64,000 bases of DNA, taken from NCBI GenBank assembly GCA_024635495.1, contig JAGXIT010000005.1, positions 186,001-250,000 on the forward strand, read 5' to 3'. This DNA is from Candidatus Saccharimonadota bacterium (GTDB taxonomy: Bacteria > Patescibacteriota > Saccharimonadia > Saccharimonadales > UBA4665). Shown piece after piece: positions 8,861-21,591 of the stretch (position 1 is its first letter; every line of letters starts with the position of its first letter). The position numbers and the translations under genes are program-made. Below the pieces are notes generated by a model. The model did not search any database, was not told the DNA's origin, and saw only the letters and a program-made list of their open reading frames with translations.

Positions 8861-8998
8861 TATGAGACGGATGAGAACCCGCACAAGTGAGCGAAGCGAA
8901 CGGAGGGTTCGGCGTAGTTAGGACGCGCACAGGAATAGTATTCCGAGCACGTCGCAGCGGAGAAGTGCAAAGCACGCTATCCCCCTCGAGGGGGTTTT
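8861..8998 (+). repeat. tRNA-trailing element E1
   Basis: A structured element after tRNA-Ser(GCU): hairpin GAACCC/GGGTTC (8875-8910) enclosing GAGCGAAGCGAAC (8889-8901), hairpin GGAATA/TATTCC, then AGAAGTGCAAAGCACGCTATCC (8961-8982). The final segment merges into a small terminator (8981-8998, CCCCC TCGA GGGGG TTTT). E2 shares the first hairpin and the AGAAGYGCAAAGCACG segment. Confidence 0.6.
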
Positions 8999-10163: not shown

Positions 10164-10179
10164 CCCTGTTTATCTTCTA

Positions 10180-10336
10180 GAGAGGGATAGCGTGCTTTGC
10201 GCTTCTTCGCTCGGGAGGGATATCGCGCGGCTGTTAGCCGCACTCCTTCCTGCGGTACTCGATAATCCTATGCAAGCACAGGATTACTCTCCTTTCCTCG
10301 TACGCCGAACCCTACGGGTTCTCATATCTTTCTTAA
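10180..10336 (-). repeat. tRNA-trailing element E2
   Basis: A minus-strand element following tRNA-Ser(CGA). In its own orientation it has hairpin GAACCC/GGGTTC (10308-10322), GGCGTA, hairpin AATCCT/AGGATT, then AGAAGCGCAAAGCACGCTATCC (10186-10207). It ends with ATCCCTCTCT (10180-10189), which copies part of the tRNA-Ser 3' end. It shares blocks with E1 (27 nt with 2 mismatches at the tail). Confidence 0.6.
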
Positions 10337-10578: not shown

Positions 10579-10652
<74 letters not shown>

Positions 10653-10655
<3 letters not shown>

Positions 10656-10692: not shown

Positions 10693-10823
10693 GTTCCTCT
10701 TGGACTATTTGAGAACCGTAGAAGTGAGCGAAGCGAACGAAGGTTCGTACAGGCGTGAGCGTGCAGGAGCTTGCTCCGAAAAGCGAATGTCGTGCAAGCG
10801 AAGCGCATCTTGCCGGGTGCACC
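10693..10823 (+). repeat. tRNA-trailing element E3 with 17-nt copy of the tRNA-Arg 3' end
   Basis: Hairpin GAACC/GGTTC encloses GAGCGAAGCGAAC (10726-10738). Hairpin GGAGC/GCTCC follows, then GTGCAAGCGAAGCGC. The element ends in ATCTTGCCGGGTGCACC (10807-10823), identical to tRNA-Arg positions 10638-10654. Confidence 0.65.
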
Positions 10824-15623: not shown

Positions 15624-15702
15624 ATGCCTTCTAGTGTAACAGCGGTGCAGATGGATGCAAATACAGGTGTCAGATATTCTTCTCCTTGCTATACTGGGGC
15701 AT

Positions 15703-17007
15703 ATGAATATACGCGTAATAGTAAAGCGGCTCGTACCGCGTGGTTTGTTTCAGAAAATTGAACCGCTTGGACACTTTGCAGAAGCGGTGTTTTTCAACAT
15801 CCTCTACGGCTTTCCAGCTCGTAATATGCAAGTAATTGGCGTGACTGGCACAAACGGCAAAACGACGACAGCATTCCTCATTCATAAAATGCTAGTAGAA
15901 TCTGGCTATAACAAAGCCGGGCTCATGACGACTGTCGGCTATGGAATTGGTAAAGATATCAAGATGCAAGTTCATCACATGACGAATGTGCCGGTACCCG
16001 AGCTGATGCAGCGACTCAAATGGATGAAATCACAAGGGGTGGACCTACTTATACTCGAAACTACTTCTCATGCACTCGCACAACACCGTGTATGGGGTAT
16101 ACCGTATAGCATCGCAGTGGTGACCAACCTGACCCATGAACATCTGGATTATCACAAAACCTTTGAGCGCTATGTGGCTGCAAAGCGGAGTATGTTTAGC
16201 CTTACGCAGCGTAACGCACGAGGAAGGCGCCTCGGCATCGCTAATGCGGATGATAGTGTGGCGGCCGAGTTTGTGGCAGAAACGGAAAATAGCGTGCTCT
16301 ACGGCGTTCAAGCGGGTGACATACAAGCAAAAGAGGTTCAATTGCGTTCTGATGGCTTGAGCTACAAAGCCGAGACGGCAGATATCACCTATCATATCGA
16401 GAGTCACTTGCCGGGTAGTTTCAATGTGTATAACACCTTGGCGGCCGTGTCTGTCGGCCGAGTACTAGGGCTGACTAAGGCGCAAATAGAGCAAGGAATC
16501 GCAGCGCTCAAAGGTGTCGAGGGCCGCATGACTTCTATTGAAGAAGGCCAAGATGCTTCGATTATCGTAGATTTTGCTCATACGCCAGACAGTTTCGAGA
16601 AACTGTTCAAGGATCTTCGCCCAGTAGTGAAGGGCAAGCTGATCGTGATGTTTGGCTCAGCCGGGCGTCGGGATGAGGCCAAGCGAGCGATTCAAGGCGA
16701 GCTGGCGGGGAAGTACGCTGATGAAGTTGTGGTGACCGAAGAAGATGACCGAGATATCGACGGCATCGGCATCATGAATCAAATCGCTGAAGGTGCAGAG
16801 AAAGCCGGCAAGATTCGAGACAAGAACCTATTCCTCATCCATGACCGCGCGGAGGCGATTGCCTTTGCGGTCGGCCAGACTACCTCTGCGGATGACACCG
16901 TACTCTTGCTCGGTAAAGGCCACGAAAAGACTATCGAGCGTGCCGATGGCGAACACCCATGGGACGAAATTGGCACCACCAAAGACGCCGTGCGCAGACT
17001 AAGCTAG
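15703..17007 (+). CDS. Mur ligase family protein (MurE-like)
   Basis: This 434-aa ATP-dependent amino-acid ligase has a P-loop GVTGTNGKTTT near residue 45, the central NLTHEHLDYH motif, the ligase C-terminal domain with DFAHTPDSFEK and a late GKGHEK motif. It most resembles UDP-MurNAc-tripeptide synthetase but is shorter than usual and lacks the full N-terminal substrate domain. The DNPR motif that marks the meso-diaminopimelate enzymes is replaced by EDDRDID, so the added amino acid is uncertain. Start at 15703 follows TATACT (15690-15695) by 7 nt. Confidence 0.85.
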   Translation: MNIRVIVKRLVPRGLFQKIEPLGHFAEAVFFNILYGFPARNMQVIGVTGTNGKTTTAFLIHKMLVESGYNKAGLMTTVGYGIGKDIKMQVHHMTNVPVPELMQRLKWMKSQGVDLLILETTSHALAQHRVWGIPYSIAVVTNLTHEHLDYHKTFERYVAAKRSMFSLTQRNARGRRLGIANADDSVAAEFVAETENSVLYGVQAGDIQAKEVQLRSDGLSYKAETADITYHIESHLPGSFNVYNTLAAVSVGRVLGLTKAQIEQGIAALKGVEGRMTSIEEGQDASIIVDFAHTPDSFEKLFKDLRPVVKGKLIVMFGSAGRRDEAKRAIQGELAGKYADEVVVTEEDDRDIDGIGIMNQIAEGAEKAGKIRDKNLFLIHDRAEAIAFAVGQTTSADDTVLLLGKGHEKTIERADGEHPWDEIGTTKDAVRRLS

Positions 17008-17113
17008 TTTTCAACTGTACGCATAGATTGTTGTCGTGAGAATAACTTTGAGTAGATAATTTTCGTGCGCATTACGAGAGTTATAGGGTTCAGATGTATA
17101 AAATTGGGAAATT
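17008..17113. other. Intergenic leader of the folded element
   Basis: No gene. A weak promoter-like pair TTGTCG (17031-17036) and TAGATA (17053-17058), and TATAAA at 17096-17101, could drive transcription of the folded element. The 11-mer ACTGTACGCAT occurs here (17014-17024) and again at 17271-17281. Confidence 0.3.
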
Positions 17114-17303
17114 GGGTTCGAGTGTTGATTGCATGTGATGCAAACGCTTTGGTAAAAGCGGAGACAAATAATGTCTCTCAAAACTCGAACCCAGGGGTTC
17201 CGGAAGGAGCGCGTCGCCTAGTGGCAACACAGAAAATGTTCAGAAAGAGTGCCCATAACTTTCTGTCCATACTGTACGCATCATTGCGTAACGCTCCTCC
17301 CGG
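17114..17303. ncRNA. Candidate structured RNA, two multibranched domains
   Basis: Domain A (17114-17192) is closed by a perfect 10-bp stem GGGTTCGAGT/ACTCGAACCC and holds three perfect 6-bp hairpins: TTGCAT-gtg-ATGCAA (17129-17143), CGCTTT/AAAGCG (17145-17160) and GAGACA-aataa-TGTCTC (17161-17177). Domain B (17200-17303) is closed by CCGGAAGGAGCG/CGCTCCTCCCGG (11 of 12 pairs). It holds GCC-tagt-GGC, AACA/TGTT, CAGAAAG/CTTTCTG (7 bp) and TACGCA-tcat-TGCGTA. It does not match tRNA, tmRNA, RNase P or SRP RNA signatures known to me. The strand is unresolved; it could also be the 3' UTR of the minus-strand gene at 17315. Confidence 0.5.
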
Positions 17304-17314
17304 AGATGTCCTGG

Positions 17315-17758
17315 CTAGTGCCGGTTCACGTAACCACGTGACTCCGTATTGCTCGATGACGTCTTGACGACGACGTGGTGCTGCTTCTGGGCGGCAAGAT
17401 CGTCAACCAAAGGGCTGACGGTGAGCCGAACCATGTTCAGTATCTCCTCGCAGAGCTGGTAGGCGTATGCCTTTGGGTCCGCAGAAGCGCCGGTCTTGAC
17501 CTTGATGAGCAGCATCTTCGAAAGCGGTGCATCCGTGCGACCGTGAACTTCAATGGAGTGGAAGTTCCGGTGGATTTGCGTTTCGCGGAGAGCCCTCTCG
17601 AAGAGATCCTCGTCCGTCGAGTAGAGGTGCATGTCGAGGCGGTACGTGTGTCCGTCAACCCACGAAGGCTCCCGCTTCAGTGCCAGCTCAACGACGACCT
17701 TGTCGTTTCCGCTGCCAGCACTGAGGTAGGCGCTTACTGAGGAATTCCGTTTTCCCAT
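17315..17758 (-). CDS. Hypothetical protein
   Basis: This 147-aa protein is not recognised. It has alternating beta-like segments (DKVVVELALKREP, KMLLIKVKTG) and a charged C terminus, no membrane helix or signal peptide. AGGAAG lies about 7 nt before the ATG, and a strong promoter is located at 17827-17855. Base composition appears more GC-rich than its neighbours, and an overlapping plus-strand frame is also open, so I keep some doubt. Confidence 0.55.
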   Translation of the reverse strand: MGKRNSSVSAYLSAGSGNDKVVVELALKREPSWVDGHTYRLDMHLYSTDEDLFERALRETQIHRNFHSIEVHGRTDAPLSKMLLIKVKTGASADPKAYAYQLCEEILNMVRLTVSPLVDDLAAQKQHHVVVKTSSSNTESRGYVNRH

Positions 17759-17826
17759 TGTGTCTTCCTATCTCTGCTTGTAGAGGTGCATTTGTCTTGC
17801 GGCATCCTATCCTTCAGGACTAACGA

Positions 17827-17855
17827 AGTATAATACACGTATAGACAAAAATCAA
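17827..17855 (-). promoter_or_regulatory. Promoter of the 17315-17758 gene
   Basis: Minus strand: -35 TTGATT (17850-17855), 17-nt spacer, -10 TATACT (17827-17832). It overlaps the divergent promoter of the 17881 gene (TAGACA, 17 nt, TAATAT). Confidence 0.65.
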
Positions 17856-17880
17856 CAAAAATGGTAATATAGGCTAAATT

Positions 17881-18414
17881 ATGACGAACATGGAACAACC
17901 CGGTGGCTCAGAGAGCCCTAGAGCTAATCACACTCCACACGAGAGTCAGCTATCTCCAGCTGATTTCTTTGGCGAGCTTATGATAGCCGCAGAGCTCAAG
18001 TTACTGACAGCGTTACATATTCAAGAGAAGACAAAGAAAGACAGGGCGCAATTTGCATGGGTAACTAAAGAATATGACGCTGCCCGCGAGATAGATTTGT
18101 TATGGTATCGGCTTGGCGAGTCACAGCAAATCGGTGACGGTGAAGACCTTATAGAAATAGGCATACCAACCCCTGAGATTAGCCATAATACAACGATCAC
18201 CGTGCAGGAAGCTGAGGCAGGGCTCACAAGCGTCAATCAAACGTTCATTCTAGTAGCAAACCCTAGAGATAAACAATCGGTGTTTGAACTGGATCAAGCA
18301 AATGCCCAGAATTATACCCGTGAAGGGCTAGACGGTAGCAATAGTACTATTTTGAGCGGGTTACTTGGTAAAATTTCGATGTATCACGTGCATCCAATTC
18401 GAACGCTTATATAA
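17881..18414 (+). CDS. Hypothetical protein
   Basis: This 177-aa soluble protein is not recognised. Residues 35-80 are helical and charged (EKTKKDRAQFAWVTKEYDAA); the rest is mixed. A -10-like TAATAT ends 10 nt before the ATG, with TAGACA 17 nt upstream, which predicts a very short leader. It is divergent from the 17315 gene and precedes groES. Confidence 0.55.
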   Translation: MTNMEQPGGSESPRANHTPHESQLSPADFFGELMIAAELKLLTALHIQEKTKKDRAQFAWVTKEYDAAREIDLLWYRLGESQQIGDGEDLIEIGIPTPEISHNTTITVQEAEAGLTSVNQTFILVANPRDKQSVFELDQANAQNYTREGLDGSNSTILSGLLGKISMYHVHPIRTLI

Positions 18415-18461
18415 TTCAGCCGAAGTTCGATAATTCTTGAGCTTTTGAAAATATACAGTTC

Positions 18462-18490
18462 TTGACCGGGAATTAGCACTCTAGTATAGT
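18462..18490 (+). promoter_or_regulatory. groESL promoter
   Basis: -35 TTGACC (18462-18467), 17-nt spacer, -10 TATAGT (18485-18490). Confidence 0.8.
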
Positions 18491-18499
18491 GAGTGCTAG
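18473..18499 (+). promoter_or_regulatory. CIRCE operator (HrcA site)
   Basis: TTAGCACTC, 9-nt spacer, GAGTGCTAG: the inverted repeat bound by the HrcA heat-shock repressor, differing from the consensus by the last base. It covers the spacer, the whole -10 and the start region of the groESL promoter, so HrcA binding should block RNA polymerase. hrcA itself is not in the window. Confidence 0.9.
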
Positions 18500-18559
18500 T
18501 ACTTTGGCATTATTTTTTGCGAGAAACGCTAAAGTTTCATCTAAATAGGAGGAGCTAGT

Positions 18560-21392: not shown

Positions 21393-21472
21393 ATATATTT
21401 AGTTTAGCACTTACACTCTTCTCTTTTTACCGGAAAAAGAGAAGCAGAAAACCTCGGTACACTTCCGCTATC

Positions 21473-21562
21473 TTGGCAAACCGTTGCTAACAAGCACAAT
21501 CGCCACTCGAGAGAACACGAGATGGCTTGATAGATTGTGCTGTGCCACAACGGTTTGGCCAG
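21473..21562. repeat. Long imperfect palindrome
   Basis: Outer arms GGCAAACCGTTG / CAACGGTTTGGCC (21475-21486 / 21548-21560), middle arms AGCACAATC / GATTGTGCT (21493-21501 / 21533-21541), inner arms GCCACTCG / CGAGATGGC (21502-21509 / 21518-21526). The stacked stems would fold into one extended hairpin of about 90 nt. Confidence 0.7.
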
Positions 21563-21591
21563 GCTAGCTCCATAGTACCAAGTAAACCCAT

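Follow-up and report, generated by a model that had tools for sequence, protein, structure and literature searches.

The locus and its neighbours

The window, by which we mean the whole stretch of 64,000 nucleotides analysed (G000:C1:186001-250000), is part of an 820-kb genome of Saccharibacteria type. Within it, the 190 bases at 17114-17303 (positions are those of the window) are located between two convergent genes, a Mur ligase on the plus strand and an ORFan on the minus strand, which agrees with the neighbours given by an earlier sequence-only reading (a Mur ligase and an unknown ORF). The surroundings of the locus are as follows.

15655-17007, plus strand: Mur ligase
17008-17113: spacer 3' of the Mur ligase, AT-rich (34% GC), without intrinsic terminator
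17114-17303: the folded locus
17315-17758, minus strand: ORFan of 147 aa, stop codon 11 nt from domain B of the fold

The coding scores of 17114-17303 are negative, which indicates non-coding DNA and rules out a coding origin. The stretch is single-copy in its genome, and the nearest tRNA is found at 10579-10655. No promoter was observed at its start, and a search of 17008-17314 for intrinsic terminators (a G+C-rich hairpin followed by a U-run) gave no site.

The ORFan has a GC content of 58% versus 48% for the genome, and its coding score is positive but weak. It belongs to no family and has no relative in 59 other genomes, its predicted structure has a pLDDT of 54 without a significant match in the PDB, and a promoter-like site is present upstream of it at 17855-17827. 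The interval between the Mur ligase and groES (window 17008-18559) is variable, as its gene content differs among the members of the genus that were read: a gene of about 300 aa lies within the interval in five of the six relatives and is absent from it here, and the two unknown ORFs of the interval in the present genome, the ORFan included, are found in none of the six. The ORFan and the variable interval fit a recent insertion at a place of gene turnover.

The two-domain fold

Folding of the 190 bases gives two multibranched domains with the following parts.

17114-17192: domain A, with a 10-bp closing stem (17114-17123/17183-17192)
17125-17128/17178-17181: inner stem of domain A, 4 bp
17129-17143, 17145-17160 and 17161-17177: three hairpins of domain A, each with a perfect 6-bp stem
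17200-17303: domain B, with a closing stem of 12 positions (17200-17211/17292-17303)
17213-17228, 17229-17275 and 17276-17289: stem-loops of domain B

Computation gives the previously described two-domain fold as the minimum for either strand, and domains A and B are kept when flanking sequence is included in the folding. Domain A, with its 10-bp closure and three perfect 6-bp hairpins, appears in the minimum free energy (MFE) structure exactly as had been claimed. For domain B the claimed closure of 11 out of 12 pairs and a 7-bp helix are recovered, but not the four hairpins, since the MFE structure has three stem-loops, of which the middle one is a stem in three parts, the 7-bp helix among them; the proposed total of nine helices becomes nine or ten when separate helices are counted. 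The closing stem of domain B has 11/12 pairs on the plus strand and 12/12 on the minus strand, where one of them is G-U, and the A-C mismatches of this domain on the plus strand are G-U pairs on the minus strand. Since 67 of the 70 pairs are Watson-Crick pairs, both strands fold nearly equally well. G-U pairs make up 0/67 on the plus strand and 3/70 on the minus strand, the latter to be compared with a share of 10% in the tRNAs of the same genome, although such scarcity is weak evidence when taken alone. The positions of the G-U pairs slightly favour the minus strand. Reading of the sequence revealed no GNRA or UUCG loops on either strand.

The RNA MFE is -81.4 kcal/mol for the plus and -88.7 kcal/mol for the minus strand, corresponding to z values of -7.9 and -8.4, and none of 200 shuffled sequences was as stable. 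With DNA parameters the z value is -9.9 on both strands. In a genome-wide structure scan, in which folding energy was regressed on composition, the minus strand at the exact borders lies 6.9 SD below the trend; on a fixed 100-nt grid it lies 4.9 SD below, at rank 34 of 16,388 scan windows, and many of those ranked above it are elements downstream of tRNA genes (see below). The fold is real, and the earlier statement that it is unlikely to arise by chance agrees with the shuffling result, but other places in the genome are equally or more structured.

The fold is without detectable conservation. No Rfam family matches 17114-17303, as the sequence-only reading had held, and permissive cut-offs yielded matches at chance level only. 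A missing housekeeping RNA was considered and rejected for tmRNA and RNase P RNA, which are located elsewhere in the genome; SRP and 6S RNA gave no match in the genome scans, and we know of no likeness of the fold to either. BLAST searches of 99 relatives and of 93 genomes of the family gave no convincing match, and a 23-nt match in G069 is regarded as chance because the region there does not fold. The covariance model R1, which was built on one sequence and run with strict filters so that distant homologues could escape, found only itself among 92 genomes of the family, 393 of the order and 380 of the phylum (overlapping sets). The homologous intergenic regions that had been proposed as a check were not found in the genus, family, order and phylum genomes searched, which leaves no covariation to support the fold at 17114-17303. 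BLAST against phages and plasmids gave no match, and patterns for domain B gave none in viral contigs. Of the earlier proposal of a new structured RNA, the fold, the absence from Rfam and the non-coding character hold, while its nature as an RNA finds no support in a homologue, promoter or terminator, nor in the nearly equal folding of the two strands. In the same genome, at G000:C1:167737-167855 on the minus strand (L161:7737-7855), there is an Rfam match to the DUF3800-I RNA of 87 bits.

T-arm sequence in domain A and folded elements after tRNA genes

What the sequence-only reading missed is the identity of the arms of domain A, which are a tRNA T-arm and its inverted copy and occur otherwise only beside tRNA genes in this genome. 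The parts concerned are the following.

17114-17192: arms of domain A, GGGTTCGAGT, the sequence of a tRNA T-arm, and the same sequence inverted
17183-17195, minus strand: T-arm-like arm CCTGGGTTCGAGT, the same 13 nt as in the T-arm of the tRNA-Lys(ctt) of this genome
17195-17200, plus strand: third, partial T-arm half GGGTTC, in the linker and running into domain B

Over the 190-nt length, 0.021 such 13-mers are expected. Genome-wide there are 106 exact 10-bp inverted repeats with arms 40-100 nt apart, and T-arm arms are observed at 17114-17303 and at three or four loci beside tRNA genes, compared with 0.05 loci expected by chance. With the broader class of T-arm/inverted T-arm elements the locus shares an arm that is the same as a T-arm among the tRNAs of the genome and has an inverted copy 40-100 nt away. 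Within the locus, the T-arm stretch is the only source of tRNA k-mers of at least 11 nt, and no copied tRNA 3' end of that length was found. When viral and genome collections were searched with patterns for the T-arm stem, most matches were tRNA genes that have an inverted T-arm past the terminator, and these are not homologues.

Similar arrangements are common after the tRNA genes of this genome. By eye, about 20 of the 42 tRNA genes have a terminator behind them, then their own T-arm in inverted copy and a multi-hairpin region, and in several cases the tRNA 3' end is repeated where the element ends. In a stringent count that required agreement at 10 or more of 11 positions, an inverted arm was found for 6/40 tRNAs versus 24/1560 mismatched pairings. 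That a multi-hairpin domain follows the inverted and the partial third T-arm at 17114-17303 was seen by inspection, and alignment with the tRNA-Glu(ctc) element scored no better than shuffles. Inverted T-arm copies about 60-70 nt past the 3' end, behind a terminator, were noted at many tRNA genes of Clostridia, Spirochaetes, Coriobacteriia, CPR and others (L036-L115), where the arm-to-arm lengths cluster at 80-93 nt.

One module shared by tRNA-downstream elements was described by a covariance model, R2 (alignment A2, nine members), which occurs in 24 of the 59 genomes of the family, with 11 copies here and up to 34 in one genome. Three members lie in the window.

8906-8988, plus strand: R2 member, 86.5 bits, downstream of tRNA-Ser(gct)
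10179-10239, minus strand: weak R2 member, downstream of tRNA-Ser(cga)
10742-10821, plus strand: R2 member, downstream of tRNA-Arg(gcg)

Among the 52 distinct aligned copies 94% of the cells pair versus 76% in shuffles, and the covariation score is 0.52 versus 0.20, both counts leaning towards the model to which the alignment was fitted; two-sided changes occur at 14 of the 18 pairs. When R2 loci were examined with a tRNA caller, most had the end of a tRNA about 70-100 nt upstream. Rfam contains no match to R2 and our literature searches found no description of a conserved folded module of this kind, so that R2 apparently is an undescribed, strongly covarying family. Gene-sized inserts lie between some of the R2 copies, together with copies of tRNA 3' ends. 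Rows of inserts behind a tRNA gene, resembling cassette arrays and separated by copies of the 3' end of that tRNA and by folded elements, were observed at G000:C5:201300-204622 (L187) and at G046:C15:116200-125200 (L270). A second dispersed family, consisting of long folded intergenic repeats, is represented in the window at about 21437-21563 (minus strand), with copies at G000 C1:2965, C5:66812 and C5:385686 that are about 80-83% identical over 128-164 nt.

Membership of 17114-17303 in R2 was rejected, as the model gave no match there up to an E value of 10 with filters off. It has no tRNA gene directly upstream, and domain B shows no likeness to the tRNA-downstream elements above shuffled controls.

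Possible origins and comparison with known systems

With a rough probability of 0.38, our data point to a folded element of insertion or attachment type that carries T-arm sequence, a tRNA-less relative of the tRNA-downstream elements, or to a relic of one. Its general design would be that of those elements, i.e. a T-arm, an inverted T-arm, a partial T-arm and a multi-hairpin domain. It probably came together with the ORFan at its edge into the gene-turnover interval, and it may act chiefly in single-stranded form, as DNA folding into a recombination site, or may be what is left of such a site; mobility, a role at the DNA level and the link to the ORFan are what we infer. Counted in favour of an insertion-type element are the T-arm inverted repeats, the z value with DNA parameters, the few G-U pairs, the variable interval and the array-like elements at tRNA genes. 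Counted against it are a domain B unlike that of those elements, the lack of R2, of a tRNA or copy of a 3' end and of a direct repeat, the single copy, and a recombinase that is distant and Xer-like, the sole tyrosine recombinase found in the genome; by reading, this protein looks like an ordinary Xer protein, encoded at C4:60951, far from the locus. No direct repeat of at least 7 nt joins the two edges of 17114-17303. It is tempting to speculate, although we consider it unlikely, that Saccharibacteria insert cassettes in integron-like fashion at folded T-arm sites on tRNA 3' ends, and that 17114-17303 would be a tRNA-less site of this kind with a domain B of its own, otherwise unsampled.

A structured RNA read from the minus strand, either as 3' UTR of the ORFan mRNA or as an independent small RNA, is a possible but tentative alternative. 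Domain B would then come first and domain A last, and the RNA would shield the 3' end or bind a partner. All three pairs that are not Watson-Crick are G-U on this strand, which would however happen by chance in a quarter of cases; the minus strand is also lower in energy, and the ORFan, which lies on the same strand and has a promoter-like site upstream of it, ends 11 nt before the fold. Against such an RNA speak the lack of a homologue, and hence of covariation, the lack of a nearby promoter for a start of its own and of a terminator, and the absence of GNRA and UUCG loops from both strands. We regard it as improbable that the fold is a bidirectional 3' barrier halting RNA polymerase or exonucleases that arrive from the Mur ligase on one side and the ORFan on the other. 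The position between convergent genes in an interval without other terminator and the folding on both strands are in line with such a barrier, but the intrinsic-terminator pattern is missing, with no U-run behind either domain, and the single long hairpins behind the tRNA genes of this genome are far simpler structures. A similarly small probability is given to a relic or chance product without present function, for instance inverted repeats left by past insertions in the variable interval: while the single copy, the lack of conservation and the high turnover of the interval agree with this, no shuffle reaches the observed energy, and nearly all pairs are intact, which is not expected of an old relic.

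If the locus is a folded T-arm insertion site, a way of gene acquisition that these very small, host-dependent bacteria apparently use at tRNA genes would extend to places without a tRNA, whereas an RNA would be large, branched and confined to its lineage, and of the sort missed by RNA searches based on conservation. On either reading, the study led to a strongly covarying family of elements downstream of tRNA genes that has no match in Rfam.

The integron attC is, like the proposed element, a folded single-strand recombination site at the 3' end of a gene. While attC is a single long hairpin with GTTRRRY and RYYYAAC boxes, 17114-17303 is multibranched and has neither box on either strand. With regard to a cognate IntI integrase, the genome gave one tyrosine recombinase, which reads as Xer-like. 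In size and branched shape the locus is like the large structured bacterial RNAs of unknown function in Rfam, from which it differs by having no Rfam match or homologues. In genomic islands at tRNA genes (Islander, PMC4383910), T-stem or T-loop sequence is the core of the attachment site, with accessory genes alongside. The tRNA-downstream arrays with inserts resemble these islands with a T-stem attachment core (PMC4383910), but the site at 17114-17303 differs from them in lacking a tRNA, a displaced tRNA fragment and an integrase. Closest are the tRNA-downstream elements themselves. They are situated directly after a tRNA gene, have domain B motifs in common (R2) and frequently carry a copied tRNA 3' end at their far side, unlike 17114-17303; like it, they are intergenic, contain few G-U pairs, and have a T-arm and its inverted copy around hairpins, with a multi-hairpin domain behind them that at 17114-17303 was seen by inspection. 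As far as can be judged from sequence, the locus stands beside this class and outside it, the agreement being limited to the T-arm arms and the general order of the parts.
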